Part shown: positions 1,637 to 18,878 of the stretch, piece after piece | Layout of the letters: each line of letters starts with the position of its first letter | Position numbering within the stretch: the first letter of the stretch is position 1 | IMG/VR virus record: IMGVR_UViG_3300028299_000243 | Location: 1-23,403 of that record | Direction: 5' to 3' (one strand) | DNA from: a virus | DNA length: 23,403 bases | Translations under genes and position numbers: made by a program | Notes under the pieces: model-generated | Database searches by the model: none | Told to the model about the DNA's origin: nothing | What the model saw: the letters and a program-made list of their open reading frames with translations, nothing else

Positions 1637-4600
1637 TCACCTGGCAATCTTCCCTTCCCGTATCTTCTCCCTGTTCTCCCGGACGATCTCGATCTTGATC
1701 CTCTGCCGGATTCCCTTCCGTGCGCTTGCCACAATTCTCGAAACCGCATCCGACTTGCGTTTATCGCTCATCGTTTCCCATTGCGCCGAGTCGACCAGGG
1801 GCAGGAGGCGTTTTCGCGCGATCTCACTTGTCTTTTCCAGGTAGCGACCATACTGTTCCATCGTCATTTTAAACGGGGTCCCTGCTATCTCGACGGACCG
1901 GCTGGGCGGCGCCGTACGCAAAATACCTTGTGCGGCCATTTCCTGCATCGCCTCATAAACCCGGTCTTTTCCCTTGGCCTTCGTGATCGGCAGGACAGCG
2001 GCAGGCGCCTCCCGGGCAATCACGGCAAGTTTCTCGTTGAGCCGCTTGGCGTATGCCTGCTTCTCCTCTTCGTCATAGGACGGGTTCGCCTCGATCCGCG
2101 ACTGTTCCTTTCGAAGATCCTGTATCCGGACGGATGCCTGCGCACGGGTCTGTTCCGGTGATACCGAGACGATGTTAATCCCGAACCATCTTCCCAGAGC
2201 CTGGCCCGCGGAAACCTCCCGGCCCCATCGATCTTCGCCGCCCGCAATCGCTCGGCCCGCATACCCGATTGCCCCCTGTCGTGTTGCCATCGACGGTATC
2301 CAGATGTTGCCCATGTACTCCAACAGCTTCGCCGCCTTCATCCACGCAGGGTCGAGCTGGTTATAAATCGGTGTCCCGAAATAAGAATGGAGGGGGGGTT
2401 GATCCTCCCGTGCCGAAAGCCCCGTGTAGAGCATCGACAAAAAGGGGTTCGATATTCCCATGTCGCGAATTCCCTCGCCCAGATCGGCAGCCCTCATGTC
2501 GCGCGCGATCGCCAGATAGTTTCCCCAGGGGAAGAAGTATTCCAGGTTAACCCACTGCCATTTTCCATTGTCACTCTTCCAGGGCAGGATCATCATCGAC
2601 CCGCTCTTCTTGATGTAGGCCGGGAGCTGCTTCTCGAGGTCTTCCCAGTCGTCGTCGTCCAGGTCGTTGAATCCCATAGCGAGCGCCTTCGTCGCCGGGT
2701 AGATCAACGCGAACTTCGCCAGCACCCAGGGCCGCTTTTTCAGCGATTCAAAGATGAGGGGGGCTATTTTGTACTGATATGTTGCGAATGGCATGATCGT
2801 CTGGCGGAGTCCCTTGATCGACCGGGAGGTCAGTGAGTAATCCATACCCCACTTCATCGCCTCCAGCGTCGCCTCGTCGATGGATGTGCCCGCCTCGCGT
2901 CGTTCGATAAAAATCGCCAGTTTATTGATGTCGTCGATCTTCCCGTAATACTTTGCCACGTTCTTCACCGCGATCAGTATCTGGTCGATCCTTCCTCCCT
3001 TCACCTTCCGGAATTCGTCCAGGACGTTATTGATCTCCGAGACAAACCAGTTGGTGTGGAAGAGTCCCATGCCGAAGGCCTCTTCGTAATGTTCGTCTTT
3101 GGCCTTCATCGACTCGCAGGCCCGGATGATATCGCCGGGGATTTTCGCAAGCGGCCTCCCGCGCATGTTGTTCTGTATGATGTTGGAGACGATGTTACGC
3201 ACCGCCGTAGGGATATTCAACGCCACTTTCCCCATCTTGAAGATCGCCATCCCCTGCCGCTCGATCTCCAGGATCGTATCCATGAGTCTCCCGCGATTGG
3301 TCGCCATGTCCAGGACCGGCATCAGGTCGTCTGCAATGGCTGCCTGGACAAAGGCGCCTGCCAACGGGCCATATCCCTTCGAGTTCGGGAGCTGCACAAA
3401 ATCACCAGGCATATTCTCCGATTCCGCCTCCGCTTTGTCCAGGGCTTCATGCAGGATGCGGTGGATCTCCGCGACCTCCGGCGTCTGGTGTTTGGCCAGC
3501 ATCGCATCGTAGGTCTTGGCCTCTTCGACGAGTTTCCCGATACCCATTGTCACGTTGCGTCTGGTCCGGCCACGTATGGGTGCCTTCAGCGGCTTCCCGA
3601 CGGGGACGGTGATAAGCGACGGCTGCCATACCCAGTCGGCGTTTTCGGCAATCGACTGGAGGTAGTCATACTTTGCGATATCGGTGAGCGCCTTTCCCAT
3701 CCCGACCGGCACGGCCACAGATGCATCCTCGATGAGTCCCAGTTCCTTCTTCTGCTGCATGGTCAGTTTGGTGTTTCGGCTCTTGGTGTAGGAGAGGTTC
3801 AGTTTCCCCGTCGACGTCAGGAAAATGGGCGCGTCTTCGCCCATGACGTGCTTGGCATACATGTAATGGATATACTTCCCGCGATACTTCTCAAACTGCC
3901 CCTCGGCGATGATCTCGCGATCCACCAGCATCTCGCCGATCACTTCCGTGCGGCGGCGGATCATTGCCGCCGTCTCGCGAACCTCCTCAGGCAGGGTCTC
4001 GATCGGGATATCACCGTTCAGATACCAGAACATATCTTTCTTAACCTGGTCCGGGTAGGCGTCTACCTTTTTATGGAGTTCCTCGATGAACCGGGTCGCC
4101 CGGGCGACATTCCCCATCGCCCCGTACCGCTTCGCCAGTATCTTGTCTCCATCGGACACCGTCGAAAAAGGCTGCCAGAACTCCTTCCAATGCTTCGCGA
4201 AGGCCTTGATTGCCCCTCCCGTGGCCGGTGATCGTGCGCCCATCAGCTCCAGTCCGCGTTTTGCAGCCTTGGTCGCAGGTTTGACGATTGTCTCTTCCAT
4301 CGCCTTCTCTGCCATATCCCCGGCTTTCATCAGCAGCGTAAATTCACCGCTGGGGCCTGCTTTGTGCAGTGCTTTTTTTCCCTCCGCCAGCAGATACGCC
4401 AGGTCGCTATCGCCATACTGTCCCAGTTTCGCGAACCCGAGACGACGCAAGGCTTGCCGGATAGACCCCAGCGCCTCTTTCGCCCGCTGGATGAGCGTCG
4501 GCGACTTCTGCCCGATAAGCGCCAGTAGTTCTGCGGCTATCCGCGCATTCCGCATCTCCGGCGTCGTCTCCGTCTTCGCGTCTTTCCAGTAGGCGTCAAA

Positions 4601-7600
4601 ATCCGCCCGGATGCCGTACTTGTCCGCTATTTTTGCCAGTCCCTGGTATCCGCCCAGCCTGGTGTACAGTTTTGCTAATTGTTGAATACTGCCCTTCCCG
4701 AAGAGTTTAAAAATACCAAGATGCCCGTACACTTCATGAAAAATTGACTTTTCAAGTTGTTCTCTGGTAGCATGGGCGTCACGAATCAAATAAATGGAGC
4801 CATCCTTATGCAAGACAGCGTAAGTATTATCCTTGGTGCCGCCGGCATCCTCTGCGGCTGTGCGTACCTCCTCCGGGAGCGCATCAAACGAGTCCGCAAG
4901 TTTCAGCGTGACGAGGCTGCCAAGTTTGCTCATCTCGCGAAAATCCCCTATGACATCACCAGCGTCTTCAACGGAGATCGGTGTATCTACCCGGACCGAC
5001 GCAGCTGATCGGGCGAGGAAGTCTGTGGTTTCTTTTTTAATGGTCTCGCCCCATTCAAAGGCTCCCCTGTGCTCTACCTCGCTTCCCGTTATGTCGATTA
5101 CGTCAAGAAGGTCAAGCTGTAGTGCCTTTGAAAACCTGATAATGTTTTTGAGGTTTACTGCCCGATTCGGGGAGACGACGAACATGCCCGTCGCATTGCG
5201 CTTCTCCGCTTCTTTCAAGATGTCAGACTGTGTTTTCCCCCGCAGGTTATTGTAGTCTGCGCCCTCGTAAGTCGCAACGGGGGTATTTTTTGTATCTACG
5301 AGGATTATGCCGCCATCCGGCATTGTTATGGCCGAGTAGGCCATTACGTCTTCAGGACGCAGGAATTTCACAGCGGAGTTGCTTATAGTCTTAAACTCGC
5401 GGGCTACTTTTTTCAACTTTCCGATCTTCTGATCTCCAGGTGTGATGGGAGCCGCCGTTTCCCCATTCACATGTGCCGAATAAAAACCATGAGCAACTGC
5501 AATCATATCTCTGGCAACTCTGGATGTACCGCGAAGTGCGTTATCGAGGGCGTTAAACACAGCCGTGTCCTCGGGGCTCAATGCAGCATTCCCGGAGGGG
5601 TGCTGATGCAGCAACCAGATATTCTTTGCCGCTGGCGTGTTAAGGACCTGTCCGGCAAGTTCTCCTGTACCGGCCATAGAAGCGACTTTTGTGCCGATAG
5701 TATGCGCGATGATGTTTATGATGTTGTCGTTTGTGTCGGTGACGACGGCAAGGAAATGTTCGTTAGGATATTTTACAAGGTTGATTTGTCCGATGCGGGC
5801 AATATCTGCTGCGGTTTCTGCTCTTCTTCCGCCTTTGTAGTATCCCTGGAGGACGGAGACGACTTCGGGCCGAGGCCCACGCCGTATGGCGCCGGTGCCG
5901 GACCCGTCGTCATGCCTATTCTCTCTTCCTGCGGCTGGTATATCACCGAAGAGTGAGAGTTGTTCTTTAATGATGTTTTCATGGCTGTATTGTACGCCCC
6001 TTTCATGTATTTGTAAACCTTTTTCTGTGCCGCCCAGGATTTCATGCTCGTCGTCGAGCGGATTTTCTATCGTACCTGCCGCCTCGTCACCAACCGGCGT
6101 GGCCTTCGTCGCCCCCAGTTCGGCGAGAATCTGGCTGTACTGCTCTTTAAGCCCTGCCAGTGTATCGGTAAACTGAAAGGGCTTTTTAACCTCCGCCTTC
6201 ATGATGGCAAGATTCTTTTCCTGCTTTTCGATTGAGGAGGCAATTTCCGCGGGCCGTTCTACAATTCCCTTCAGGATATGCCGGAGCGATGTCAGAATCC
6301 CGTCCAGACCGCCATGAAGGGTATCCTGTGCGGCCAGTGTCTCTATCCTGGTTTTTTCATCCCCGAACGTGTTGGTAAACTGAACCTCCCGTGGATCCAG
6401 CTGGTAGCTATAGACAAAGCGGTGATCCTTGATCTGTTGCGTTCGTTTAACCTGGCCTGCGGGGAGTGTCTGCTCGGCCTTGATGGTGATCGTCAGATTT
6501 TTACCGTTAATCTGTGCCGTGATGCGCGCTTCGATATCGGTGATCTGTTTTGTCCACCCATCGGGAATGGTCCAGTCTTTGTCCTTCCTGAGTGATCGCG
6601 AGAGCCGGTCCTCATTGGTGGGGTTTGCTTCGCGCTTCTGGAGATCCGAGATGAGCTGCGCATAGGACTTTTCAACCCTCTCTTCGGCCTTGCCGAGCGC
6701 CGCCTGGAGCGCCTTCTTCCCCTCCTTCGTGTCATCGTAGCTCTTCGCGTCGACAGTGAATGTGTACTGGTTATCGGGATAGGTCTTTTCAACATCTTGT
6801 TTTTCTTTTTCCGCCTTCGTGATGTTGGCCTTTGCCCGTGCCAATTGTCCCTCCGACTGGCTGAGCTGCGACCGCAGTTGTCCGATCGTCCTGCGATGAC
6901 CATCCGCCAGGATGGCAATCTCCCGGATCTGATTTTCCAGTTCAAAGCGTTTTTTTACCAGAGGATTCCCGGCCGAGGCGGCCATCAGGTCTTCAAAGGT
7001 GAACTGGAGTTCGTCCGCTGGATCATCGAAGCTTCGTCCTTCCAGCTTCCCGCGAAGGAGCTGGTTTATAAACTTCTGTTTCTTCTGGAGCCGGTCGTAG
7101 GTCACCGAATCGAGGGTATTGATCACAGCATAGGCGAGGACCTCCACTTCCTGGTTTGTGTTTCCGGGCCGCAGTATCCTGCCGTTTCGCTGTTCGAAAT
7201 CCATCGGCCGCATTGGTGCATCCACATGATGAATTGCGACCAGTCGCTCCTGAACATTGACTCCAATCCCAAGTTTGCTGGTAGAGCCGATCACAACGCG
7301 GATCGCGCCCGCATTGATCTTTTCAAAAAGGGACTCTTTCGTCGCATCGGTGTTGTATTTGTTTTCCGTGATATTCGCGATCTGGGTCTCAGGCACTCCC
7401 ATGCCGACGAGTTTCTTTTTGATATCGTCGTAGAGGCTGAACCCGTTCGGCCCGCGGTATGTATCGGCGAAGACCAGTTGCGTCCCCGGGACCTCCTGGC
7501 TTTCCTCCCAGCGATTGAACACCTCCTGCACTACCCGGTTTGTCTTGCTGTCTGGATTGTCAGCCGCATCGGCGTGCACCAGACGCAGGTCTATCGCGGC

Positions 7601-10600
7601 CTGTTTTGCCCGGTTGAAAAGCAGAAGAGGAACATGGGACAGCTCTTTTTTCTCCATTCCCGAGAGGTTGTTCCACTCCGCGCGTTCCTGCCGGATCCGT
7701 TCGATCTCGTCGGCCAGTTCCTGGGACCGCGGAATCGCCACGGACTGGATGCCGTCGCCTTTCAGCTTCGGGATCATATTCGTCCAGCCGGGCACGTCCT
7801 CCTGGAGGATCACGTCGGCCGCCGTCTGCCACATCTTGATCAGTTCGGGTCCGTTTACGTATTTATTGAATCTCTCGATGTCCTTGAACTCGCCCGTCTC
7901 GGTCATCTCCAGTGTCCGTGTCGTGTCGCCGAACATCGATGCGAAACCGTCAAAGTGTCCCGCGCCGAATTCTGCCAGAAGGTCCGGACGTACGTATCGC
8001 AACAGCGTCCAGAGTTCTGCCGTCGTGTTCGATACCGGTGTCCCGGTCGCCAGGTAGATGTTTTTCCCGCGGGTCTTCTCCTGGACTGCGCGCGCTTTCA
8101 TCAGGAACCGGAAGGATTTGGCCGCGGCGCCCCGGTCGAGCCCCTTGACGTTTCCCATCTTTGTGCTGAAATCGCCCCGTTTGTAGTGGTGAGCCTCATC
8201 GACCAGGACGGCGTCAATCCCCATTTCGTCGAAATAGATCGTATCAATTCCATGGGCGGAGTCTTTAAGGGCTTCCAGCCTGGCTTCCTTGCGCTTGAGC
8301 ATTGCGTGAAGCTGCTTGACCGTCGGCGCATCTCCGCGTTTCGGCTTATCGATATCTCCACCGAGTTCGAGAATCGCGGCCTTGATCTCCTCCAACTGCT
8401 CTTCGATGAATGCCGCCTCCCGTTCGGGGTTGACATTCAAATCATCGAAAAACGAATGAGGAATGATGATCATATCGTAGTCGTTGGTCGCGATACGAGC
8501 CAACAATGCCCGCCGTGCGCTTTTTGCCCGGTCGTTCTTAGACGGGCAGAGAATCCGTGCGGCAGGATAGAGGTTCTTTGCCTGGCCGGCAAACTGGTTC
8601 ACCGTGGATCCCTGAACTACGATCAGCGGTTTATGCGCCTGGCCGGTCCTGCGAAGTTCCATCGCAAGCGTAGCGTACATGTAGGTTTTCCCCGTTCCCA
8701 CGGCATGGGCAAAGACTGTGCTTCCCTGAAGGCCCCGGCTGACCGCGCCTTTCTGGTGGGCGCGCAGGGTGATCAGATGGCTTGCGTGCGGATAATGATC
8801 AATCCCGGGAACGTCATATTGCCGGACGACATAGTTGTTCTTCTCCCGGTTGTAAACCGCGGCAACGGCCGACGCATGGCTGGTGTGCTCCAGCACATAC
8901 TCCTTGAACGCCGTCTGAATCTCTCTCTGTTTCTGCTGAGCATTAAGACTTTTTGCCTGGTTCTTCACCCGTTTTTCATCGATAAGGTCATAAATCTCCG
9001 TTCGATGAAGATTGAGACAATCCTCCACCAGTTGTGTCCCGGAGCGGCCTTCCGAGCCCCACACGGTGTAATTTGGTGAGTTCCTGTTCCAGTTGCCGGC
9101 GTCATTGACCGTCCAGCGGCTGACCTCGTCTTCGCCTACCTTTACTGTGGCGAGCGTCGCCGTAGCCCGGCCCTCCATCTTTTCCGCCATAAAGCCGTCG
9201 ATCACCGCCTCAGGTATCCATTCCGACCCCAGACGAAAATAAATCTCGTCGATCGTCAGCTCGGGGGGTTGTACGGCCCGGAGCGCTGCCGCGTTCTTCT
9301 TTGCTCCCTGCTCCTCGGCAATCCGAAGCTTCTCCCGGACGTTCCCCGAAAGGTATTCGCTGCGAGACTCCAGCAAGCCGTTGGCCGGATTCAGAAAGGC
9401 AAGTTCTTTCTCGATCAGTTCGGCCTGGACCGCAACCGTGTCCTTCCCCAGGAGTGCGGCGATATAATCCGGGCTGATATGGTTCTTGTAGGTGAGGCTG
9501 ACGTTCACCGCATCTTCGATATTCTCCGACGTTACCGGTTCGGAGAATGGAAAGAGGGTCCGCTTCGTGAAGATATCCGCCTTCGTGAAGATATCCTGGT
9601 TGCGGGTCCGTGTCTCTCCTTTGTTTTTGCCTTTGCCGACAACATAGGTAACCGGTTTTTTTACAATGTTTTCCAGCGCCAGGACTAAGGGAAACTCCAC
9701 GTCGTCGGCAAGAAATGTGCTCGGTTTTTCGTTAAACGCTCCATACTTCTGCCGGTAGCGGTCATAGTCGCGATTCAGTTTTCGCTGGAGTTCAGCGATA
9801 TCTTCCGTAGTCGCATCCTCTTGCTGCATCGTCATGATCAGCTTCCCGGCCATATCCCGGACGGAGATAAATGAAGCCGCCTGGAGAACCTTCTTCCGTT
9901 CCGCCGCCCATTCAGGCGCAACCATGACGCCGGAGTTATTCACATAACTGAGCGTGCCATCTTTCAGGACAAAGGTCCCGGCTTTGGTCCCCGCTTCCGC
10001 CCGCTGTATCGCGGCCGGTTCAGTGGCGTTCTCTGCGGTAAAAATCCCCTGCGGCAGCCGGACGACGGCCTCGTCGATCTGTTCTGTCAGCGGCCTGCTA
10101 TCATCGGGGGCAAGTGTGTATTCTTCCTTGCCTCCGTACATCGTCCCGGCCATGGAGTGCTTCCCAAGGACCATCTCGGGGTGCTGCGCAAAATACTCGT
10201 TGATCGACACATCCGTTCCATCCATCGTTTTGACTGGTGCGGTGGTCCTCCATGCGTTCCTGTCCCGATAGGCTTCTGCCGTCTTTTTCCGGAGAATGAT
10301 GATGTCCGTCGTAACATCCGTTCCGGCGTTCTTTCCGAAGGCATTGTTTGGCAGGCGTATCGCGCCGACCAGGTCAGCCTTGTCGGCCAGGAGTTCACGC
10401 GCCTTCCCGTTTTTCGTTGAATCCATCGTGTAGCGCGACGTGATCGCGATTACGACACCGCCGGGGCGGAGCGCATCAACGGACCGGGCAAAGAAATAGT
10501 TGTGAATCGACCAGCCGGAATAGGCGGGGTGCGCAGTATCGGTGATCGGGTAGTTCCCGAAGGGAAAATTGGAGATGACCAGGTCCACGGAATTGTCGGG

Positions 10601-13600
10601 GATACCCTGCGCTTTTTCGAAGCCGGTGATCTGGATATCGGCCTGCGGGTAGAGCTGGGAGAGAATCTGCCCGCTCATCCTGTCAAGTTCCACGCCCTGA
10701 AGTTGAACCCGTCCGGCGAAGTCGGCGGGTATTAAGCCCAGGATATGACCGATCCCTGCCGCAGGTTCCAGAACCCTTCCTCCCTCGAATCCGAGTCTGC
10801 GCCCCGAGCCCCATAACCCATGCTCGATTACCTCTCTCGACGTATAGTGGGCGTTTAGCGTCGAGGCCTCGGCGGACTTCCACTCCTCCGCAGTCAATAT
10901 TCCGCCCAGCAACGGATGGAGTTTCCGCCCATACTTGGCTTCCCATGCTTCGTACTTTTCGGCCTCGGCCGTATTGAAATAGGAGGCCGGGTTTCTGTAT
11001 CGCCAGTGCTCGGGATTTTCATCGTGATGCTGAATGTAGGTTGCGAATTCGGGGTTAAAAACGTCCTGGGCTACGGCGCCCCATCCGGAGTATTGCAAAA
11101 GGATCTTCTGCTCCGCAGGTGTTGCGGCGCGTTTTTCTGTGACGAGTTTTTTTGATAATTCAATGGCGCGGATATTAGCGTTGATCCGGGCTACCTTCCC
11201 GGAATGGAAGAGGACGTCGGCAGGTTCGATGCGGGTGTTTACACCCAGATCTCCGTTGGGTTGTCGGGATCGACGGGCAGGTTGTCCGCCCACTTCTGAA
11301 TTTCCTTTTCCAGTTTCTCCGGCAGCGGCTCCGGCGGGTTGTCCCGGAACGCCGGGCCGTCCGGCGGCGACAGGATGTACTGGCTCGCCACTTCGTCGGC
11401 CTCTTCCCGGCTCTTCCCCTTGTCGAGAAGGTTGCAGATCATTTTGTAGGCGACTGCTGCTTTTCTGTCCAGATACGCCTTCAGTTTCCCCGACTGGTAG
11501 AGTTGTTTCACCCGTTCGGGATAGTTCTCCAGCATCCAGTCCAGGCGTTCCTGCCAGTACCGCCAGAGTTCCTGATGGGGATTCACCACGAGAAATTCCT
11601 TTTCCTTCTTCATGGCCGGCTTCTCCTTCCTTTGTATGTAATGTAACGGCGGCCGCGCCTTTTGTCAAGTCATTTTCCGTCACCTCCATGTAGAATCGTT
11701 TGATATACGGGATGATCGCCTGGGCCTCGAATCCGCGTGCGGTGAACTGGCTGACCGTCTCCTTCATCCACTCCTTGACTTCGATCGCCGCCGCGCGGAA
11801 GTGGACGTATGTCGCCTGCAGGTGTGGTTTGATCGCCTGATAGAGTTCTTCATCGAAGACGCCGCCGCCCATCATGCTGATCGGACCCTTGCCTGCCCGC
11901 TTCATGATCTCCGCGATCGCGTCATAGGAAGAGGCCACGCCTTTGGCGACCTCCGATGCGGCCTTTCCCAGAGACGCGGCAGGCTTGATCATGTCTTTTT
12001 TGATCCCCAGCGCCTCCTGGAGTTGCGCCGTCGGATCGCCGTTGTAGAAGCTCCAGACCTTCTTCGGCCCGTACCAGCGCCCGCCCGCCCGCTTGATCGT
12101 CTCTGAATGTGCCTTGGTGTTTCCGGAGACGTTCCATACGGTCTTGCCTGTGTTGGTTGCGCCTTTCGTAACGACCAGACCCAAGTCAGCCAGGCTCTGT
12201 GCCCCGGTCACGGTGGCCGCCATGGCGGGCGGTCTCTGTGCGGTCGCGATCGCAACTCCCTGACTCTGCGCCCGTTTCTCCGGCAGATATTTCTTCGCCT
12301 CCTCCGGATACTTCGCGGCCCATGCATCGAATGCTTCCTGGTATAGCACGGCTTTTTGTCGCGCCGATTCCGCCCGGGACCTCGCATCCCGGATGTTTTC
12401 CGGTTTTCTTGCCCGCTGCGCCGCCGCATCGCTCTCCCTTGCCCGCTGTTTGGAATAGGTTACGGTGTAGAGCACATGACTGGGCTCCTTGAATCCGCCA
12501 TCAACATTGATATCGGGAATCGCCGTGGGTGCGGGTCCTACTTCACGGGTGATATCTTTTTCACTCGCGGAAAGCTCCACACCGGAATCCATTTTCACCA
12601 TATAGTAATGGTCGACAGTTCGACTGCCTCCGAACATCGTCTGCATGACTATCGTATCGACTTTACTGATCGTCCCATGTCGCCCGGATTTTAATACAAC
12701 GCGATCTTCCTTCTGAAACGCCGCGCCCTCGGCCTTCTCCTTTAAAGATTCGGATGCCTTTGTCTCTGCCGGTTCTTTTTTTGCGACTGCGGCCGTGACA
12801 GGCTTCATGCCGGTTGCCGTTGTTACACCCCGGTTCGGCGCAGTTTTCTTCGGCAGGTTCTCGATGCCCTTTGCGATACGATCCTTGACTGATCTTTCGG
12901 CTTCGTACCGTGCATCGTCCGGGGTATGTCCGAAACCGACAACCCCTTCATGCGGTCCTGCCTTTACGGTTGCCTGGTATCCATCTTTCCATACCCCGCT
13001 GGTCTGCTTTGTGATATTAATTTCCAGTTCGGGTCCGGCCTGATCAACCGTCTTTTTCTCCATCTCTGCCAGCGCTTCCCTCGCCAGTGCATCGAACTCG
13101 TCGTCTGTGAGAACATCGCCCGTCTTCGGTCCAGGCTTTGCTTCCTCCGTGGCCGTGACTTCCTTCGCTGTTTCTTCCGGTGCTTGAATCTGGTCTTGTT
13201 TCTCCTGTTCTGCTGCCGTTTCCGGGACACTGCTGCCGGGGCTAAACTCCGTTGCTTCCTCCGTCTGGTTTAAATAATCGACGCCCCTGATGATCGTGCC
13301 GTCTTTTACTTTCCGGATCGTGCCGTCTTTCAGGGTAACGTTCCCCTGGTCGTCGATATCGGTAACGGTAAATTCTTCACCGGCAATGACAAACCGGTCC
13401 CCCTCCAGAAGATCCTTCACGGCGATCTGTTTATCCCGGACGGGGTAAAACCCCTTTTCCGCCCAGAACGGTTCTTCCAGGACCCGGCCGGGGATGCGTT
13501 CAGATGCTGCGGCAACGATCGCGTCATAAACTTCTTTCTGTTTTTCCGTCATGCCTGCGCCGGTCTGCGCCTTTTTGATCACGGTAAGCGCATCGTCCTT

Positions 13601-15961
13601 CGATAGGGACATTCCCTGTTTATTAACATCGGTCAGCCAGTCCACGCCGGCAGTTACTCTTTGAAACGTGTCATCGGGGCGGACGACCAGGCCCGCAGTG
13701 CCTGCGTTTTGAAGCTGGCTTTCCATGAGGCTCAGCAGGTACCGGTGCTGCATGTCTATTTCTGTGGCTATCTCCGGACTGACATGGTCCTTATTTTCTT
13801 CCTCCGATATAATTCCTTCATCTGTAACGGGAGTCTTTTTCGATTTAATTCCCAGTATCTGAAGCGACTGCGGGATGGTCTTTGCGACTGCGGGCGTCTG
13901 GAGAATTATTTCCAGAACCTTTTTTTCGTCTTCCGGCAGCCGGCCCTGGCTTGCCTCTTCCTGCAGGACAGCGATGTCCTGGTCCGACGGTCGCTGTGCA
14001 GGCCAGAAGGATAACGTTTTTCGGGCATAGGTTACCGCCCTTAGTTTCCTGTTTCGTTCCTCCCTCAGGATATTTGATTCCCGGTCACGGATATCCTGTT
14101 CCCGTTTGGCATCGATGGAGTCGATCCGGGCTTTTATCAGAAGAGGGCGCATGGCATCGAGATCAACAGGCTGGCCGTTCAACTGATACAGTCCCCTGTC
14201 GTCGGGTGTGATGATCAGACCCAGGCCGGGGCTTTGTGTGTCCGCGGGAGAGGCGGCGATGGCCGTTACCAGCCGTTTTTCAGAAAGGCTGAATGTCTCG
14301 TCGAAGATCTTCTGCTTTGCCGGATCGTCGCCCGCGAGTTGAGATCGCAAGGTGTCCCGGTTCGCCATGGCCTGATCGATCTGTATCTTCCGGGCTTGCA
14401 TGTCTTCCGACGCCGCGGCCTGTTCCTCTGCATCTCTGCGGGCAATTTTTGCCTTCCGCGCCTCTTCAAGCGCCTGTTGATTTTCATCATTCAGGTCGGA
14501 AAGGCTCAAGTCGAAGAGGTTCTCTCCTTTCTTCCTGTTTTCTGCCGACCTTACCTGATCGATTGTCTGTGCCAGAGGTTCTTCCAGCGCAATGTCTTTC
14601 CCCGCAGCCGGCCCGGATAAAAGCGCGCCCGAGCCGGGGTCTGTTTGCGTTTTGACGGCAGGCGTCGGTGCATCCTTTTCTTTCGCCCTGGTTTCGGTTT
14701 TGCCGAATATTCCCGGGGGCGGCGTATATTTACCGTCTCCATACAGCAGATAACTGACCATCTCTTTTGCGTTCACTTCGGGAATGATCGTTTGTTGAGC
14801 TATATCCTTGACTTCGGTTCCTCCGGTAATGACGTCGGCCCCCGGAGGTGTCTCTTCGAGTTTCGTCCGGATCTCGTTGATCCGGGTGTCCAGGCGCAGG
14901 GAGATGTCCTCATCGGAAATCCCTTCATCCTTGAGGGCAAAGACCATATCCTTGACGGCAAGTTGATCGGCCAGATCGTTGTACTGTTTGACCTGGGCCT
15001 TGTGGACGCTGGTTCCAATCGTTCCTCCGGCGATGCCTCCTAACGCTCCGCCAATGATGCCTGACTCCAGAATCCGGCCGATGTTGTCGGTCAGTTCCTG
15101 CTCCGGTTTATGCCCCAGCTTTTCCACCAGAACATTGACGGCCTCCTGGGCTGATTCCGTCGAACCCTCTAAAAATGCCTGCCGGACAAAGCGCTTTATC
15201 AGCCTGTCTGCGCCTGCCTGTTTCAGAAACAGGTTGTCGAATGGAAGAAGCTCGAGAAGACTGTTGACAGTTCCTGCTGCCAGACCTTCCACGGTGGCGA
15301 TGCGCTCTATGGTGTCGGCGTCATAGGCCCCGTCCTGTGTCATTTCCTGTTTTGCCTGGGTGTATGCGCTTCCTGCTTCCACCGTCATGGATCCGGCCCA
15401 CGAGCCTGCCAGAGAAGCGGCGCGGATGGCCTTAACTCCCCAGTCTGCCGCCCGTGCTGCACGCATGACGCCATATCCCGGCAGCATCATCGCAGCCATA
15501 TTTGGAAGGTTTTCGCCGACGCTGCGAACCCACCAGCGCCAGTCGCCCAAGCGTTCATGATGTTCCCATACCGTCCCTTCTGTAAGGTAATCCGGGCGTT
15601 TCAGGACTTCGCTTTCCTGGAGATTCTGAAGATAGTCCCGCGCCGTTCCCGCTCCGGGCAGACCGATCATCTCCGCCGTTCCCGCCACAGCCTCGCCGGT
15701 ACCGACCACTCCGGATGCCAGTGCGGAGACGGTTTCTGCAACCATACCGCGTGGTTTGGGGGGCTTCGGCTTATTTTCACTGCCGGAATCGTTCTCTTGG
15801 GAAAAAATACCGGCGTTTCTTTTTCGGACGGCCTCGACGAAATCAAAAGTAGATTCAGCCGCGGGCGTTTCATTTGCGGCGGGATTCTGGGTTTCTTGGG
15901 AAAAAATACCAGCATTTCTTTTCCGGACGACATCGACGAAATCAAAAGTAGATTCAGGCAT
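1637..15961 (-). CDS. Giant virion-type polyvalent protein (4774 aa): DarB-like methylase-helicase plus two metallopeptidases
   Basis: The start is MPESTFDF, with GAGG seven bases before ATG at 15961 and 15 bp after the previous stop. Order along the protein: duplicated 21-residue motif (residues 3-23 and 36-56); Gly/Ala-rich amphipathic region (about 60-330, with a GIIGGALGGIAGGTIG stretch near 300) that could contact membranes; charged helices; a beta/SH3-like module near 850-900 (GDRFVIAGEEFTV); another near 1080-1140; a small GGRWYGPKKVWSF domain near 1280-1307; a disordered linker 1450-1575; an N6-adenine methyltransferase; an SNF2-type helicase; coiled coil about 3000-3100; a RadC-like JAMM domain; an HEVYGH metallopeptidase; and a C-terminal large-polyvalent region. 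P1 DarB, a packaged methylase-helicase, protects injected DNA from type I restriction, and the same job is inferred here. The gene occupies the gp16 slot of a T7-like ejection cluster, so virion packaging is likely. I saw no lytic transglycosylase motif. A second gene is nested at 11239-11613. Confidence 0.93.
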   Translation of the reverse strand: MPESTFDFVDVVRKRNAGIFSQETQNPAANETPAAESTFDFVEAVRKRNAGIFSQENDSGSENKPKPPKPRGMVAETVSALASGVVGTGEAVAGTAEMIGLPGAGTARDYLQNLQESEVLKRPDYLTEGTVWEHHERLGDWRWWVRSVGENLPNMAAMMLPGYGVMRAARAADWGVKAIRAASLAGSWAGSMTVEAGSAYTQAKQEMTQDGAYDADTIERIATVEGLAAGTVNSLLELLPFDNLFLKQAGADRLIKRFVRQAFLEGSTESAQEAVNVLVEKLGHKPEQELTDNIGRILESGIIGGALGGIAGGTIGTSVHKAQVKQYNDLADQLAVKDMVFALKDEGISDEDISLRLDTRINEIRTKLEETPPGADVITGGTEVKDIAQQTIIPEVNAKEMVSYLLYGDGKYTPPPGIFGKTETRAKEKDAPTPAVKTQTDPGSGALLSGPAAGKDIALEEPLAQTIDQVRSAENRKKGENLFDLSLSDLNDENQQALEEARKAKIARRDAEEQAAASEDMQARKIQIDQAMANRDTLRSQLAGDDPAKQKIFDETFSLSEKRLVTAIAASPADTQSPGLGLIITPDDRGLYQLNGQPVDLDAMRPLLIKARIDSIDAKREQDIRDRESNILREERNRKLRAVTYARKTLSFWPAQRPSDQDIAVLQEEASQGRLPEDEKKVLEIILQTPAVAKTIPQSLQILGIKSKKTPVTDEGIISEEENKDHVSPEIATEIDMQHRYLLSLMESQLQNAGTAGLVVRPDDTFQRVTAGVDWLTDVNKQGMSLSKDDALTVIKKAQTGAGMTEKQKEVYDAIVAAASERIPGRVLEEPFWAEKGFYPVRDKQIAVKDLLEGDRFVIAGEEFTVTDIDDQGNVTLKDGTIRKVKDGTIIRGVDYLNQTEEATEFSPGSSVPETAAEQEKQDQIQAPEETAKEVTATEEAKPGPKTGDVLTDDEFDALAREALAEMEKKTVDQAGPELEINITKQTSGVWKDGYQATVKAGPHEGVVGFGHTPDDARYEAERSVKDRIAKGIENLPKKTAPNRGVTTATGMKPVTAAVAKKEPAETKASESLKEKAEGAAFQKEDRVVLKSGRHGTISKVDTIVMQTMFGGSRTVDHYYMVKMDSGVELSASEKDITREVGPAPTAIPDINVDGGFKEPSHVLYTVTYSKQRARESDAAAQRARKPENIRDARSRAESARQKAVLYQEAFDAWAAKYPEEAKKYLPEKRAQSQGVAIATAQRPPAMAATVTGAQSLADLGLVVTKGATNTGKTVWNVSGNTKAHSETIKRAGGRWYGPKKVWSFYNGDPTAQLQEALGIKKDMIKPAASLGKAASEVAKGVASSYDAIAEIMKRAGKGPISMMGGGVFDEELYQAIKPHLQATYVHFRAAAIEVKEWMKETVSQFTARGFEAQAIIPYIKRFYMEVTENDLTKGAAAVTLHTKEGEAGHEEGKGISRGESPSGTLAVLAGTPGLDAGELSRTGETTLPVGETEGVSGQKSSSRLQNDLQPSRQGEEPGRGRRSGEPVHPVAAGRPGVPGQPAGAAAGETGKGNSEVGGQPARRSRQPNGDLGVNTRIEPADVLFHSGKVARINANIRAIELSKKLVTEKRAATPAEQKILLQYSGWGAVAQDVFNPEFATYIQHHDENPEHWRYRNPASYFNTAEAEKYEAWEAKYGRKLHPLLGGILTAEEWKSAEASTLNAHYTSREVIEHGLWGSGRRLGFEGGRVLEPAAGIGHILGLIPADFAGRVQLQGVELDRMSGQILSQLYPQADIQITGFEKAQGIPDNSVDLVISNFPFGNYPITDTAHPAYSGWSIHNYFFARSVDALRPGGVVIAITSRYTMDSTKNGKARELLADKADLVGAIRLPNNAFGKNAGTDVTTDIIILRKKTAEAYRDRNAWRTTAPVKTMDGTDVSINEYFAQHPEMVLGKHSMAGTMYGGKEEYTLAPDDSRPLTEQIDEAVVRLPQGIFTAENATEPAAIQRAEAGTKAGTFVLKDGTLSYVNNSGVMVAPEWAAERKKVLQAASFISVRDMAGKLIMTMQQEDATTEDIAELQRKLNRDYDRYRQKYGAFNEKPSTFLADDVEFPLVLALENIVKKPVTYVVGKGKNKGETRTRNQDIFTKADIFTKRTLFPFSEPVTSENIEDAVNVSLTYKNHISPDYIAALLGKDTVAVQAELIEKELAFLNPANGLLESRSEYLSGNVREKLRIAEEQGAKKNAAALRAVQPPELTIDEIYFRLGSEWIPEAVIDGFMAEKMEGRATATLATVKVGEDEVSRWTVNDAGNWNRNSPNYTVWGSEGRSGTQLVEDCLNLHRTEIYDLIDEKRVKNQAKSLNAQQKQREIQTAFKEYVLEHTSHASAVAAVYNREKNNYVVRQYDVPGIDHYPHASHLITLRAHQKGAVSRGLQGSTVFAHAVGTGKTYMYATLAMELRRTGQAHKPLIVVQGSTVNQFAGQAKNLYPAARILCPSKNDRAKSARRALLARIATNDYDMIIIPHSFFDDLNVNPEREAAFIEEQLEEIKAAILELGGDIDKPKRGDAPTVKQLHAMLKRKEARLEALKDSAHGIDTIYFDEMGIDAVLVDEAHHYKRGDFSTKMGNVKGLDRGAAAKSFRFLMKARAVQEKTRGKNIYLATGTPVSNTTAELWTLLRYVRPDLLAEFGAGHFDGFASMFGDTTRTLEMTETGEFKDIERFNKYVNGPELIKMWQTAADVILQEDVPGWTNMIPKLKGDGIQSVAIPRSQELADEIERIRQERAEWNNLSGMEKKELSHVPLLLFNRAKQAAIDLRLVHADAADNPDSKTNRVVQEVFNRWEESQEVPGTQLVFADTYRGPNGFSLYDDIKKKLVGMGVPETQIANITENKYNTDATKESLFEKINAGAIRVVIGSTSKLGIGVNVQERLVAIHHVDAPMRPMDFEQRNGRILRPGNTNQEVEVLAYAVINTLDSVTYDRLQKKQKFINQLLRGKLEGRSFDDPADELQFTFEDLMAASAGNPLVKKRFELENQIREIAILADGHRRTIGQLRSQLSQSEGQLARAKANITKAEKEKQDVEKTYPDNQYTFTVDAKSYDDTKEGKKALQAALGKAEERVEKSYAQLISDLQKREANPTNEDRLSRSLRKDKDWTIPDGWTKQITDIEARITAQINGKNLTITIKAEQTLPAGQVKRTQQIKDHRFVYSYQLDPREVQFTNTFGDEKTRIETLAAQDTLHGGLDGILTSLRHILKGIVERPAEIASSIEKQEKNLAIMKAEVKKPFQFTDTLAGLKEQYSQILAELGATKATPVGDEAAGTIENPLDDEHEILGGTEKGLQIHERGVQYSHENIIKEQLSLFGDIPAAGRENRHDDGSGTGAIRRGPRPEVVSVLQGYYKGGRRAETAADIARIGQINLVKYPNEHFLAVVTDTNDNIINIIAHTIGTKVASMAGTGELAGQVLNTPAAKNIWLLHQHPSGNAALSPEDTAVFNALDNALRGTSRVARDMIAVAHGFYSAHVNGETAAPITPGDQKIGKLKKVAREFKTISNSAVKFLRPEDVMAYSAITMPDGGIILVDTKNTPVATYEGADYNNLRGKTQSDILKEAEKRNATGMFVVSPNRAVNLKNIIRFSKALQLDLLDVIDITGSEVEHRGAFEWGETIKKETTDFLARSAASVRVDTPISVEDAGDVIGDFREMSKLGSLVTLKLADSFDALPEEVRTAAEDAGGTKDNTYAVLHKDGSIYLIRDAHATREQLEKSIFHEVYGHLGIFKLFGKGSIQQLAKLYTRLGGYQGLAKIADKYGIRADFDAYWKDAKTETTPEMRNARIAAELLALIGQKSPTLIQRAKEALGSIRQALRRLGFAKLGQYGDSDLAYLLAEGKKALHKAGPSGEFTLLMKAGDMAEKAMEETIVKPATKAAKRGLELMGARSPATGGAIKAFAKHWKEFWQPFSTVSDGDKILAKRYGAMGNVARATRFIEELHKKVDAYPDQVKKDMFWYLNGDIPIETLPEEVRETAAMIRRRTEVIGEMLVDREIIAEGQFEKYRGKYIHYMYAKHVMGEDAPIFLTSTGKLNLSYTKSRNTKLTMQQKKELGLIEDASVAVPVGMGKALTDIAKYDYLQSIAENADWVWQPSLITVPVGKPLKAPIRGRTRRNVTMGIGKLVEEAKTYDAMLAKHQTPEVAEIHRILHEALDKAEAESENMPGDFVQLPNSKGYGPLAGAFVQAAIADDLMPVLDMATNRGRLMDTILEIERQGMAIFKMGKVALNIPTAVRNIVSNIIQNNMRGRPLAKIPGDIIRACESMKAKDEHYEEAFGMGLFHTNWFVSEINNVLDEFRKVKGGRIDQILIAVKNVAKYYGKIDDINKLAIFIERREAGTSIDEATLEAMKWGMDYSLTSRSIKGLRQTIMPFATYQYKIAPLIFESLKKRPWVLAKFALIYPATKALAMGFNDLDDDDWEDLEKQLPAYIKKSGSMMILPWKSDNGKWQWVNLEYFFPWGNYLAIARDMRAADLGEGIRDMGISNPFLSMLYTGLSAREDQPPLHSYFGTPIYNQLDPAWMKAAKLLEYMGNIWIPSMATRQGAIGYAGRAIAGGEDRWGREVSAGQALGRWFGINIVSVSPEQTRAQASVRIQDLRKEQSRIEANPSYDEEEKQAYAKRLNEKLAVIAREAPAAVLPITKAKGKDRVYEAMQEMAAQGILRTAPPSRSVEIAGTPFKMTMEQYGRYLEKTSEIARKRLLPLVDSAQWETMSDKRKSDAVSRIVASARKGIRQRIKIEIVRENREKIREGKIAR
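1640..4264 (-). other. C-terminal large-polyvalent-protein region of the giant protein (residues ~3900-4774)
   Basis: This long, mostly helical segment is typical of the C-termini of giant phage polyvalent proteins (the LPD38 type, from memory). It includes NIPTAVRNIVSNIIQNN near residues 4246-4262, a hydrophobic TIMPFATYQYKIAPLIF stretch and a PWGNYLAI-type aromatic segment, ending in a basic tail (ENREKIREGKIAR). Hydrophobic and aromatic content suggests virion packing or membrane contact during ejection, but the function is not established. No catalytic motif is visible. Confidence 0.6.
4382..4984 (-). other. Predicted zinc metallopeptidase domain of the giant protein (residues ~3660-3860)
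   Basis: The motif is HEVYGH (H3742, E3743, H3747) in the context IFHEVYGHLGIF. The histidines are one residue further apart than in the usual HExxH. The HExxGH spacing is known from dipeptidyl peptidase III (M49), and similar HEx2GHxG motifs recur in polyvalent proteins. A downstream ARIAAELLALIG helix could supply a third acidic ligand, but that is a guess. The domain follows the JAMM domain after about 290 residues. Possible roles are peptidoglycan passage, host protein cleavage or self-processing. Confidence 0.6.
5440..5810 (-). other. RadC-like JAMM/JAB metallopeptidase domain of the giant protein
   Basis: HQHPSG (H3452, H3454) followed by SPED (D3465) gives the full HxHPSG-x4-S-x2-D zinc signature of the RadC/JAMM fold. 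It is preceded by a strand-rich LAVVTDTNDNIINI segment and a conserved-looking LNTPAAKNIWLLH helix-strand. RadC-type JAMM domains are frequent in phage antirestriction polyvalent proteins. Substrate unknown: a peptide or isopeptide bond is expected from the fold. All metal-binding residues are present, so it should be active. Confidence 0.82.
7082..8794 (-). other. SNF2-type superfamily 2 helicase module of the giant protein
   Basis: Motif I is AHAVGTGKTYM (GTGKT about 2421-2425), motif II is DEAH (2588-2591), motif III lies in the ATGTPVSNT stretch, and the second lobe has GSTSKLGIGVNVQE and motif VI QRNGRILRPGN (about 2923-2933). All ATPase residues are intact. Fused to an N6 methylase this is the DarB-like arrangement found in phage and conjugative-element antirestriction proteins. 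It would translocate on DNA and couple to methylation or displacement of restriction complexes. Confidence 0.92.
9563..9598 (-). repeat. 18-bp tandem duplication inside the giant gene
   Basis: The plus-strand unit CTTCGTGAAGATATCCGC is followed immediately by a copy differing at two adjacent bases near its end (CTTCGTGAAGATATCCTG). It doubles a six-residue unit (DIFTKADIFTK) between the methylase and helicase domains. Being a multiple of three, it keeps the frame. It looks like recent replication slippage. Confidence 0.8.
10262..11194 (-). other. N6-adenine DNA methyltransferase domain of the giant protein (residues ~1590-1900)
   Basis: A QYSGWGAVAQ entry helix leads to motif I VLEPAAGIGHILG (about 1728-1740) and motif IV VISNFPFGNYP (about 1795-1805). 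Motif IV is NFPF rather than the common NPPY/F, so the first proline is replaced by Phe; related forms (NVPF, NIPF) occur, as I recall, in polyvalent methylases. The domain ends near TDIIILRKK. Expected activity is SAM-dependent adenine methylation, presumably protecting the incoming phage DNA. Confidence 0.88.
11239..11613 (-). CDS. Nested 124-aa helical protein, overlapping the giant gene in another frame
   Basis: ATG at 11613 has GGAAGGAG nine bases upstream (11623-11630), and a TTGACA/TACATT promoter-like pair lies just before it. The protein begins MKKEKEFLVVNPHQELWRYW and ends DNPTEIWV. It has five Trp and six Tyr, a helical core and a mixed-charge C-terminus. In the same interval the giant frame (residues 1450-1575) has no F, W, Y, M or C and is rich in G, P, R and S, so the nested frame carries the folded protein. 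The core pattern (LDWMLENYPERVKQLYQSGKLKAYLDRKA..., then KSREEADEVASQYIL) resembles TnpV and DUF1896-type small proteins linked to mobile-element methylase-helicase genes. That similarity is from memory and weak. Function is unknown. It lies at the junction just before the methylase domain. Confidence 0.75.
   Translation of the reverse strand: MKKEKEFLVVNPHQELWRYWQERLDWMLENYPERVKQLYQSGKLKAYLDRKAAVAYKMICNLLDKGKSREEADEVASQYILSPPDGPAFRDNPPEPLPEKLEKEIQKWADNLPVDPDNPTEIWV
11623..11630 (-). promoter_or_regulatory. Internal ribosome-binding site for the nested gene
   Basis: GGAAGGAG nine bases before ATG at 11613, inside the giant coding frame. It is the main translational evidence that the nested frame is used. 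Confidence 0.65.
11640..11668 (-). promoter_or_regulatory. Possible internal promoter for the nested gene
   Basis: On the minus strand a perfect TTGACA (11663-11668), a 17-base spacer and TACATT (11640-11645, four of six) precede the nested ATG by about 30 bases. It lies inside the coding sequence of the giant gene (encoding LTKGAAAVTLHT), so chance occurrence is possible. Confidence 0.4.
15795..15957 (-). repeat. 64-bp direct repeat, 99-bp period, encoding a doubled N-terminal motif
   Basis: Copies at 15795-15858 and 15894-15957 are nearly identical and encode TFDFV-x2-VRKRNAGIFSQE at residues 3-23 and 36-56 of the giant protein. The spacers between the copies differ, and substitutions inside the copies are few and mostly silent or conservative (DV/EA). 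The motif is amphipathic and basic in its centre. A docking or sorting tag for virion packaging is one explanation. Confidence 0.85.
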
Positions 15962-17158: not shown

Positions 17159-17584
17159 TCAATCTTTTAAAAAAGCGGTATCCTCACCGCACAGGGACAT
17201 GATAAAGCTTTGCATATGATCCTCTACCGGCGACATCCCCCAGGATTCCATCATTTTTTTAAATGGCGGAGACGCCGTTACGCCATAAAGAAATGTGCAC
17301 CCCTGCGCGACGGCAATGGATCTAAGGGTAGTAAACAATTGCGCAAAGGCCTCCTGTCTTTCCTGCGGCTGTACCTCTCTTGATCCGGTAGCCCACGTGG
17401 GCATTGCCACGCTTCCGGGAACCAGATACATGAAAAGCGCGCCGATAAATGTTCCGTCGTCCCGCTGGGCCACATATCCCGTCTTCGGTAAAAAGGCAAT
17501 AGGGCAGGGTGGCCAGCCATAATGTTCCCAGATTGACAGAAGTTTTTGGTAATGCTTTGCTTTATCAAATTTCACTAATTTCAT
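17159..17584 (-). CDS. GNAT-fold acetyltransferase-like protein (141 aa), gp13-like position
   Basis: The start MKLVKFDKAKHY at 17584 is set by GGAGG nine bases upstream (17594-17598), which lies within the end of the previous gene; the two overlap by 20 bp, so translational coupling is likely. An upstream ATG at 17608 in the same frame has no such site. The sequence has GNAT character: GYVAQRDDGTFIGALFMYLV (beta strands 2-4), a helix RQEAFAQLFTTLRSIAVAQGCTFLYGVT and a C-terminal FKKMMESWGM followed by a last strand. The usual R/Q-x-x-G-x-G/A acetyl-CoA loop is not clear, so catalysis is doubtful. T7 gp13 (DUF2833), a virion-assembly protein of 138 aa in the same operon context, has a GNAT-like fold as I recall, so this may be a structural relative rather than an enzyme. 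Confidence 0.75.
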   Translation of the reverse strand: MKLVKFDKAKHYQKLLSIWEHYGWPPCPIAFLPKTGYVAQRDDGTFIGALFMYLVPGSVAMPTWATGSREVQPQERQEAFAQLFTTLRSIAVAQGCTFLYGVTASPPFKKMMESWGMSPVEDHMQSFIMSLCGEDTAFLKD

Positions 17585-18878
17585 GTTCCAGATCCTCCAG
17601 CATGGCATTGCGCATGGTCATGGAATTGAGGCAGGCCAGCCGGTCGTCATCAGATACCGAAGGTCCCTGATCTGTCTCGCAGAGATCGGCAAAAATAATT
17701 CCATTGACACATATAAGGTGATTTTGCGTGATCACAGGGTACACCCGGACCGGTTGATCTGCTGGAACCGGCTCTGCGTGACTGCTGTTTTTTACGCGCA
17801 GCCATCGTCCGTCTTCAAACACGGCATGGCCGCCTTCAACCTGGACGCCTTTATACCGGCAGATATTCCCGGCCAGGACAACACCGACGCCGAGGACATC
17901 ATCTCCCGCATACAGGCAATCACCAATCCGCACATCCTCCACAGGCACCGTCGATTTATCCGCCATCAACACAGGCGTCCCTGCGACAAAACAGAAGATT
18001 TCGCTGACGACCAGGCCGACGCCTCCTCCGATGACCGCGCCCCACGGGCCGCCGACCGAGCCAATCTGGGCGCCCACAATCGCTCCGGAAACTGCTCCTC
18101 CTGCCGCGGCGGATACCCGTCGCTGGTCTTCTTCGCCCCCTATGTTCAAGGCGTCCATGATCGCATTCGTCGCAAATTGGGTGGCAATCCCCGCTCCTGC
18201 GGCAAAAAGGGAGGTCGAGGCCGAAACGCCAGTTCCAGCCGTAACACCCTTTTTAGCTACCTCCTTAGTTGCTTCTTCAGATGCCCTTTGCGCTACTGCG
18301 CCGCTGCCGCCTGAAGCCCAGCCCGCGGCAGCCATATCACCACTGGCATTTAACCCGGCCTGCTGGGTTGCCTGGGTTCCAACTCCTTGCGCCAGTGCCG
18401 TTTGCGCACCTGCTTCGGTCATTTTTTCTGCTACAGTCGACCCGGCTGTGCCGGTTATTCCTTGTGCTACAGTCGGTGCGGTCTTTGAAGTGGCAAGGTC
18501 CCGCAGACTGAAACCGGTCTTATCCGCCAGATAGGCGCCGGTAAGTGTCAATCCCGCAGACTGGATGCGATTGCTCTGTTGTGCCTGTTCCTTACTGGCT
18601 TCCATCTGTTGTGCTTGAAGCGCCTCATTTTTTGCCGCGATGTCTTTTGTCAACGCCTGGCTGGTGTCAAACTGTTGTGCCGTTTGAGCCAGGGAAACGT
18701 CCGCCTGCCGTGTATCTTCTGCCAGCTTTTTTTCTTCGAAAGCATTCGCCTTATTGCTCTGTACCAGCCCCCGGTATGCAGGCAACTGAGCCAGGAGCAG
18801 TGATGCGGGAGATACTTTGCGCCTCAAGCCTGTCACGGCACTGTATTGCGGGTTTACGATTTCAGGAAGGTTCAGCAT
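17565..18878 (-). CDS. gp14-like ejection protein with C-terminal Hint domain (437 aa)
   Basis: ATG at 18878 follows GAGG a few bases after the previous gene. Residues about 45-110 are an Ala/Gln coiled coil (AQTAQQFDTSQALTKDIAAKNEAL). Residues about 110-260 are Ala/Gly-rich. A hydrophobic glycine-rich stretch (about 258-295, AAAGGAVSGAIVGAQIGSVG then GAVIGGGVGLVV) could enter a membrane. Immediately after it, at Cys297, begins a Hint domain: CFVAGTPVLMADKSTVPVEDVRIGD, then GHAVFEDGRWLRV, ending TQNHLICVNGIIFADLCETD (about 297-400). No C-terminal His-Asn is present, so splicing is not expected; cleavage at Cys297 is possible. In the usual TxxH block the Thr position appears to be Glu (VEGGH). 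The place after the nozzle gene matches T7 gp14. Confidence 0.82.
   Translation of the reverse strand: MLNLPEIVNPQYSAVTGLRRKVSPASLLLAQLPAYRGLVQSNKANAFEEKKLAEDTRQADVSLAQTAQQFDTSQALTKDIAAKNEALQAQQMEASKEQAQQSNRIQSAGLTLTGAYLADKTGFSLRDLATSKTAPTVAQGITGTAGSTVAEKMTEAGAQTALAQGVGTQATQQAGLNASGDMAAAGWASGGSGAVAQRASEEATKEVAKKGVTAGTGVSASTSLFAAGAGIATQFATNAIMDALNIGGEEDQRRVSAAAGGAVSGAIVGAQIGSVGGPWGAVIGGGVGLVVSEIFCFVAGTPVLMADKSTVPVEDVRIGDCLYAGDDVLGVGVVLAGNICRYKGVQVEGGHAVFEDGRWLRVKNSSHAEPVPADQPVRVYPVITQNHLICVNGIIFADLCETDQGPSVSDDDRLACLNSMTMRNAMLEDLEHEISEI

Follow-up and report, generated by a model that had tools for sequence, protein, structure and literature searches.

DarB proteins guard against type I restriction (PMC9144972, PMC6630229), and in P1 the first 30 residues of DarB are a capsid-targeting signal (PMC9024508). 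Mass spectrometry has detected the giant protein of phage JC1 in virions (PMC9144972), which means that its giant frame is translated at least in part. The gene analyzed here encodes a methylase-helicase polyvalent protein of the kind described by Iyer et al. 2017 (PMC5512222), whose text mentions neither TnpV nor an overlap. TnpV itself (PF14198) is a helical protein of about 110 amino acids found in Tn4451 and many Bacillota elements, and the TnpV genes known so far carry ordinary gene annotations.

Out-of-frame nesting has been described in other settings. Rz1 is a phage gene fully nested in Rz in these same phages (PMC9144972), but the pair are lysis genes with a small host gene and are unrelated to the gene reported here. 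In the HBV polymerase spacer/preS and paramyxovirus P/C overlaps (PMC9093120, PMC3934983), a disordered, tolerant tether frame accompanies a constrained frame, as in our locus. Our case differs in occurring in double-stranded DNA phages and bacterial mobile elements, in lying within a 14-kb gene, and in that the linker of the long frame appears to be the overprinted one. The overlapping exclusion genes of Pseudomonas phage Fc02 (PMC9936078), which belong to the immunity region of a B3-like phage, were considered and judged unrelated. A search of open-licence papers returned no account of nesting within DarB, nor of a methylase gene with TnpV inside it.

Results

The window, that is, the whole stretch of DNA analyzed, is a 23.4-kb viral contig whose features are collected in Table 1. 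Its giant gene combines a methyltransferase with an SNF2-type helicase, matching the 'DarB-like' phrog_10089 (E=0) as well as ResIII, SNF2, and Helicase_C, and is assigned to the DarB type on that basis. Lying wholly within it, in phase +1, is an open reading frame for a protein with 5 Trp and 6 Tyr, which AlphaFold2 predicts to be helical (pLDDT 83, pTM 0.75). The giant frame over the same bases contains none of F, W, Y, M, or C among its 126 residues, compared with 9.1% in the whole giant protein, and is 58% G/P/R/S/E. The contrast drawn in a preliminary description, between a Trp- and Tyr-rich nested frame and a linker lacking those residues, is therefore confirmed. That description also set the nested gene exactly at the border between the N-terminal and DarB-like halves, which is broadly right: the nested frame ends about 40 nt 5' of the methylase part, and DarB-type PHROG matches begin at giant residue 1488 for the best and at residue 1587 or beyond for the others.

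Table 1. Features of the giant gene and of the gene nested within it
Feature	Coordinates	Strand	Evidence
Giant polyvalent gene, DarB-type antirestriction protein	1637..15961	-	4774-aa ORF with DarB-like methylase-helicase and RadC matches
Methylase-helicase (DarB-like) part of giant gene, directly 3' of nested gene	6065..11230	-	phrog_10089 E=0, residues 1488-3299; ResIII/SNF2/Helicase_C matches
Nested gene for a helical protein of 124 aa, probable divergent member of the TnpV family (PF14198-like)	11239..11613	-	ORF, conservation, permutation, profile, AlphaFold2
Giant-frame low-complexity linker, residues 1450-1575	11239..11613	-	One base out of phase with nested gene
Shine-Dalgarno GGAAGGAG of nested gene	11623..11630	-	9 nt 5' of ATG
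Sigma-70-type promoter TTGACA-N17-TACATT, 5' of nested gene	11640..11668	-	Near-consensus sequence
N-terminal part of giant gene, 5' of nested gene	11614..15961	-	Tandem 33-aa repeat at start

Two further elements of the window were observed. The N terminus of the giant protein carries, at 15795-15957 (-), a tandem 33-aa repeat, STFDFV[DE][VA]VRKRNAGIFSQE, in two copies whose DNA is 92% identical; by analogy with the P1 signal, it might be a capsid-targeting signal. A 437-aa ORF at 17565-18878 (-) has weak Gly-zipper (E 3e-5) and Hint/Hom_end (E 4e-4) matches and is possibly an intein-like remnant.

The nested frame recurs at the same position in other phages. One close relative, L002, emerged from a scan confirmed by tblastn. 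Its giant ORF is the same and stays open through the region, and its nested ORF also encodes 124 aa; identity to the window is 68% for the nested protein and 45% for the giant-frame linker. Scanning with the methylase part added six phage loci, all with a nested ORF at the equivalent place and phase, and every proteobacterial-type DarB phage giant gene tested has kept it in the same phase. A nested ORF also occupies this position in annotated phages recovered by tblastn, namely, Pseudomonas 8P, Erwinia PEp14, Itty13, PBC5, POI1126, Microcystis Mwe-JY07, SopranoGao, JC1, Atu_ph08, VvAW1, BcepIL02, Pseudoalteromonas Y7, and USP_25, yet none of the DarB phage records examined annotates it as a gene. 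Virion proteomics of JC1 could hardly have detected the nested protein since, being unannotated, it was not sought. Scans with nested proteins yielded 67 + 5 viral and 20 bacterial-genome loci, with hosts taken from contig titles and record hosts. The giant frame is open through nearly all of these, the third frame is interrupted in every one, and 51 nonredundant loci (<70% identical) hold the nested ORF at the same place and frame offset. The family alignment was too diverse for degenerate-pattern scans.

The searches also marked where the family is sparse. The window's nested protein had no tblastn match in phages or plasmids, and that of locus L018 had none in plasmids. P1 Ulx/DarB was rejected as a relative because the nested profile found nothing in P1 positions 1-26000; P1 DarB has no nested match at the equivalent position. 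Only a handful of further matches came from 399 genomes of the order of Variovorax and 369 of the class of Pseudidiomarina, indicating that the family is rare. The nested ORFs of Bacteroides phage BKO1-TP3 and Dolichospermum phage Dfl-JY45 are not clearly family members. Small ORFs without a Pfam match occupy the same slot and phase in BKO1-TP3 (L024, 2669-2929) and Pseudoalteromonas Y7 (L021, 2639-2932), with faint or no resemblance to the nested family; more than one kind of small gene may be accommodated there.

Three kinds of evidence indicate that the nested frame encodes a protein. Differences by codon position were counted in 18 pairs of loci for the overlap and, for flanks coding in the giant frame only, in the 17 of these pairs that were usable. 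Nested positions 1/2/3 in the overlap differed 493/409/665 times, and giant positions 1/2/3 in the flanks 966/726/2255 times. Nested position 2, the least variable in the overlap, is the giant wobble position; the wobble sites of the giant frame are thus its most constrained sites within the overlap. When giant amino acids were held fixed and synonymous codons shuffled, the window's nested frame remained open in 0.4% of permutations. Both frames are open in 51/51 nonredundant loci, against 11 (nested) and 16 (giant) expected when synonymous codons of the other frame are permuted, the giant-frame figure being conditional because contig ends, PBC5, and loci whose giant frame is broken had been excluded from the set. 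Finally, at least 4 contiguous matches to AGGAGG precede 102 of 110 homologous starts, compared with 8.7% of all ATGs, in sequences that are related and not independent; the start codon is ATG in 103 of the 110.

A G/P/R/S-rich linker in GC-rich DNA could conceivably leave a second frame open while only the giant protein matters, and some GC-rich loci (for example, L005 and L012) do keep the nested frame open under giant-codon permutation. Such a chance frame would not, however, carry homologous amino acid sequence and a conserved Shine-Dalgarno sequence in distant phages, and it is refuted by the substitution phase, by the permutation result, and by the stops that break the giant-phase frame of free-standing copies (below); we give it virtually no weight. 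The preliminary description had named two observations that would speak against the nested gene, namely, homologous giant genes with the nested frame broken and substitution constraint on the giant frame alone. Neither was seen: the frame is intact in phage homologues, and constraint falls on the nested frame and not mainly on the giant one. The proposal of a small folded gene overlapping a disordered, tolerant linker is borne out by this conservation and substitution pattern. We conclude that the ORF is a genuine conserved coding gene, nested out of phase in a DarB-type gene, with a probability of roughly 0.8.

Profile comparisons suggest the family to which the protein belongs. PF14198 TnpV matched the window protein (E 0.007, 16.8 bits) and that of PEp14 (E 4e-4, 20.7 bits) below the Pfam gathering cutoff of 27 bits, as phage members do in general. 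The profile matched 42 of 61 nested-family members at E<0.1 (best 3.6e-5), the next family matching 2. By hhalign, the nested family and TnpV aligned in register at E 0.001-0.002 with a probability of 12-20%, the TnpV alignment holding 4 sequences only; the window subfamily and the proteobacterial phage subfamily aligned at 98% and plainly form one family. NCBIfam and PHROG contain no family for the window's nested protein. Canonical TnpV itself shows this nesting, with identical phase, at 8 Bacillota-type methylase-helicase loci (gut phage-like contigs L133-L136, Cohnella L144, Monoglobus L146, Virgibacillus L147, and viral contig L151), four of them above the Pfam cutoff. These loci have 0 stops each in the giant-phase frame, whereas every free-standing TnpV (L148, L149, L152, and L154-L157) has 3-7. 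The weak but repeated matches in register and the shared nested slot support reading the nested-gene family as a divergent relative of TnpV, as the preliminary description had guessed.

In Streptococcus phage phi-SsuZKB4_rum (L137/L140), a frameshift-split TnpV lies directly 3' of an SNF2 gene that is apparently truncated within the helicase part; the Streptococcus SNF2 gene has no nested gene at the position considered here.

A kinship with DUF1896 proteins, the second guess of the preliminary description, drew weak support from structure. The best solved fold was PDB 2APL (Z 6.3, a middling value for a helical protein; rmsd 2.2 over 65 residues; next best Z 3.2), the DUF1896 protein PG0816 of Porphyromonas gingivalis. 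Sequence identity to it is 20%, and the match is not proof of kinship. Sequence matches in the PDB were rejected as designed helical repeats and chance.

Codon usage and free-standing relatives bear on which frame is older. Scored against the codon usage of the giant-gene flanks, the nested frame reached +0.17, the linker -0.26, the noncoding frame -0.23, and the flanks themselves +0.30; the nested score exceeded that of the linker in 44 of 50 loci. Intact free-standing copies with a broken giant-phase frame occur in Corticibacter (L112), Variovorax (L123), Pseudidiomarina (L120), L129, L113, and others. Because the nested frame has gene-like codons, the linker frame lacks them, and free-standing relatives exist, the small gene is probably the older and the linker overprinted on it; the giant-protein stretch over the small gene looks like little more than a wrong-frame by-product. 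Conversely, the small gene may have been born by overprinting within the linker and later escaped as free-standing TnpV-like genes, given that the phage family has many nested copies, and that its few free-standing ones may be prophage remnants. This order of events is improbable in light of the codon usage, of free-standing TnpV in such unrelated contexts as phiNJ3, an IncHI2 plasmid, and a Vescimonas element, and of the rarity with which a conserved helical fold arises from de novo frames. The existence of both free-standing and nested copies makes the age order and the function directly testable.

In Pseudidiomarina (L120, 4974-5762), the nested-family domain forms the N terminus of a 262-aa protein with a hydrophobic C terminus, in a locus that also has a McrB-like AAA protein and HsdM.

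The suggestion that the halves of the giant gene were once separate genes with the small gene between them drew evidence in both directions. In PBC5 (L013 = L030, 2116-2470), the frame switches about 45 nt 5' of the nested start and the N- and C-terminal halves are separate ORFs, although the switch could possibly be a sequencing error in an old record. In L005 and Virgibacillus, however, the start of the DarB-half gene precedes the nested gene by only about 100-240 aa (about 120 aa in L005), which makes the nested gene part of the N-terminal linker of the methylase-helicase. What precedes the nested gene varies between loci.

The nested sequence of PBC5 is the in-frame end of the annotated orf33. 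Only because orf33 continues into the nested frame does phrog_938 'endolysin' match the relatives, the nested protein corresponding to its last 102 residues, and an endolysin identity was rejected. The same continuity might suggest that the small protein is the C terminus of the N-terminal half, reached by ribosomal frameshifting and without internal initiation. Such an origin is very unlikely, however, as the conserved Shine-Dalgarno sequence and ATG (103/110) stand at the N terminus of the conserved domain, many loci have stops just upstream in the nested frame, and free-standing copies begin at about the same Met.

A separately initiated product is consistent with the signals 5' of the nested gene, among them the promoter-like sequence at 11668-11640, which is absent from the preliminary description. 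Five of 6 loci in the clade of the window (the window, L002, L005, L006, and L007) have a site with at least 10/12 matches no more than 90 nt from the start, against a background of 0.4-0.8% of stretches of equal length in these loci. Most other loci have no such promoter, and internal initiation on the giant mRNA is therefore taken as the putative general route.

Discussion

We propose a model in which the giant frame was extended through an older small gene, so that the linker would be an alternative-frame reading of that gene, under no demand but to stay disordered and free of stops. The small protein would have a translation start of its own, with ribosomes initiating internally at its Shine-Dalgarno sequence on the giant mRNA; in the window's clade, a separate host-type promoter would probably serve it as well. 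It is predicted to fold as a small helical protein. Most likely, it would regulate, or act as a small partner to, the methylase-helicase/antirestriction system in which its gene is embedded. This role is favored by the constant position beside the methylase-helicase and by two free-standing copies near hsdM, one in Variovorax (L123), divergent from hsdM-hsdS-hsdR, and one in Pseudidiomarina (L120). We advance the role tentatively, at somewhat less than even odds.

Alternatively, the small gene may be a lysogeny or early accessory gene, such as a regulator or a superinfection exclusion gene, parked in the linker with no tie to the methylase-helicase. A near-consensus sigma-70 promoter of its own within a late virion gene, as seen in the window's clade, would suit such a gene, as would the adjacency of TnpV to recombinases or HTH genes elsewhere. 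We consider a parked gene rather unlikely, as the equivalent nested slot beside the methylase-helicase in both proteobacterial and Bacillota elements argues for linkage and the promoter is absent from most other loci.

More broadly, the TnpV superfamily may represent an overlooked small subunit, translated on its own, of methylase-helicase antirestriction proteins in phages, plasmids, and conjugative elements of several bacterial phyla, with the giants having arisen by out-of-frame read-through and the central linker being the overprint. We offer this combined proposal with some reserve, as a possibility slightly more apt to fail than to hold. If true, the fusion would have run across a gene still in use.

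In double-stranded DNA phages and bacteria, few long genes are known that are nested on the same strand and clearly proven by comparison. The gene described here recurs in public phage genomes from Erwinia, Klebsiella, Pseudomonas, Agrobacterium, Burkholderia, Vibrio, and others, where sequence databases have missed it. It is a candidate new component of the DarB antirestriction system and gives context to the orphan TnpV family. It also suggests a route by which genes may be fused while the gene between them is kept.
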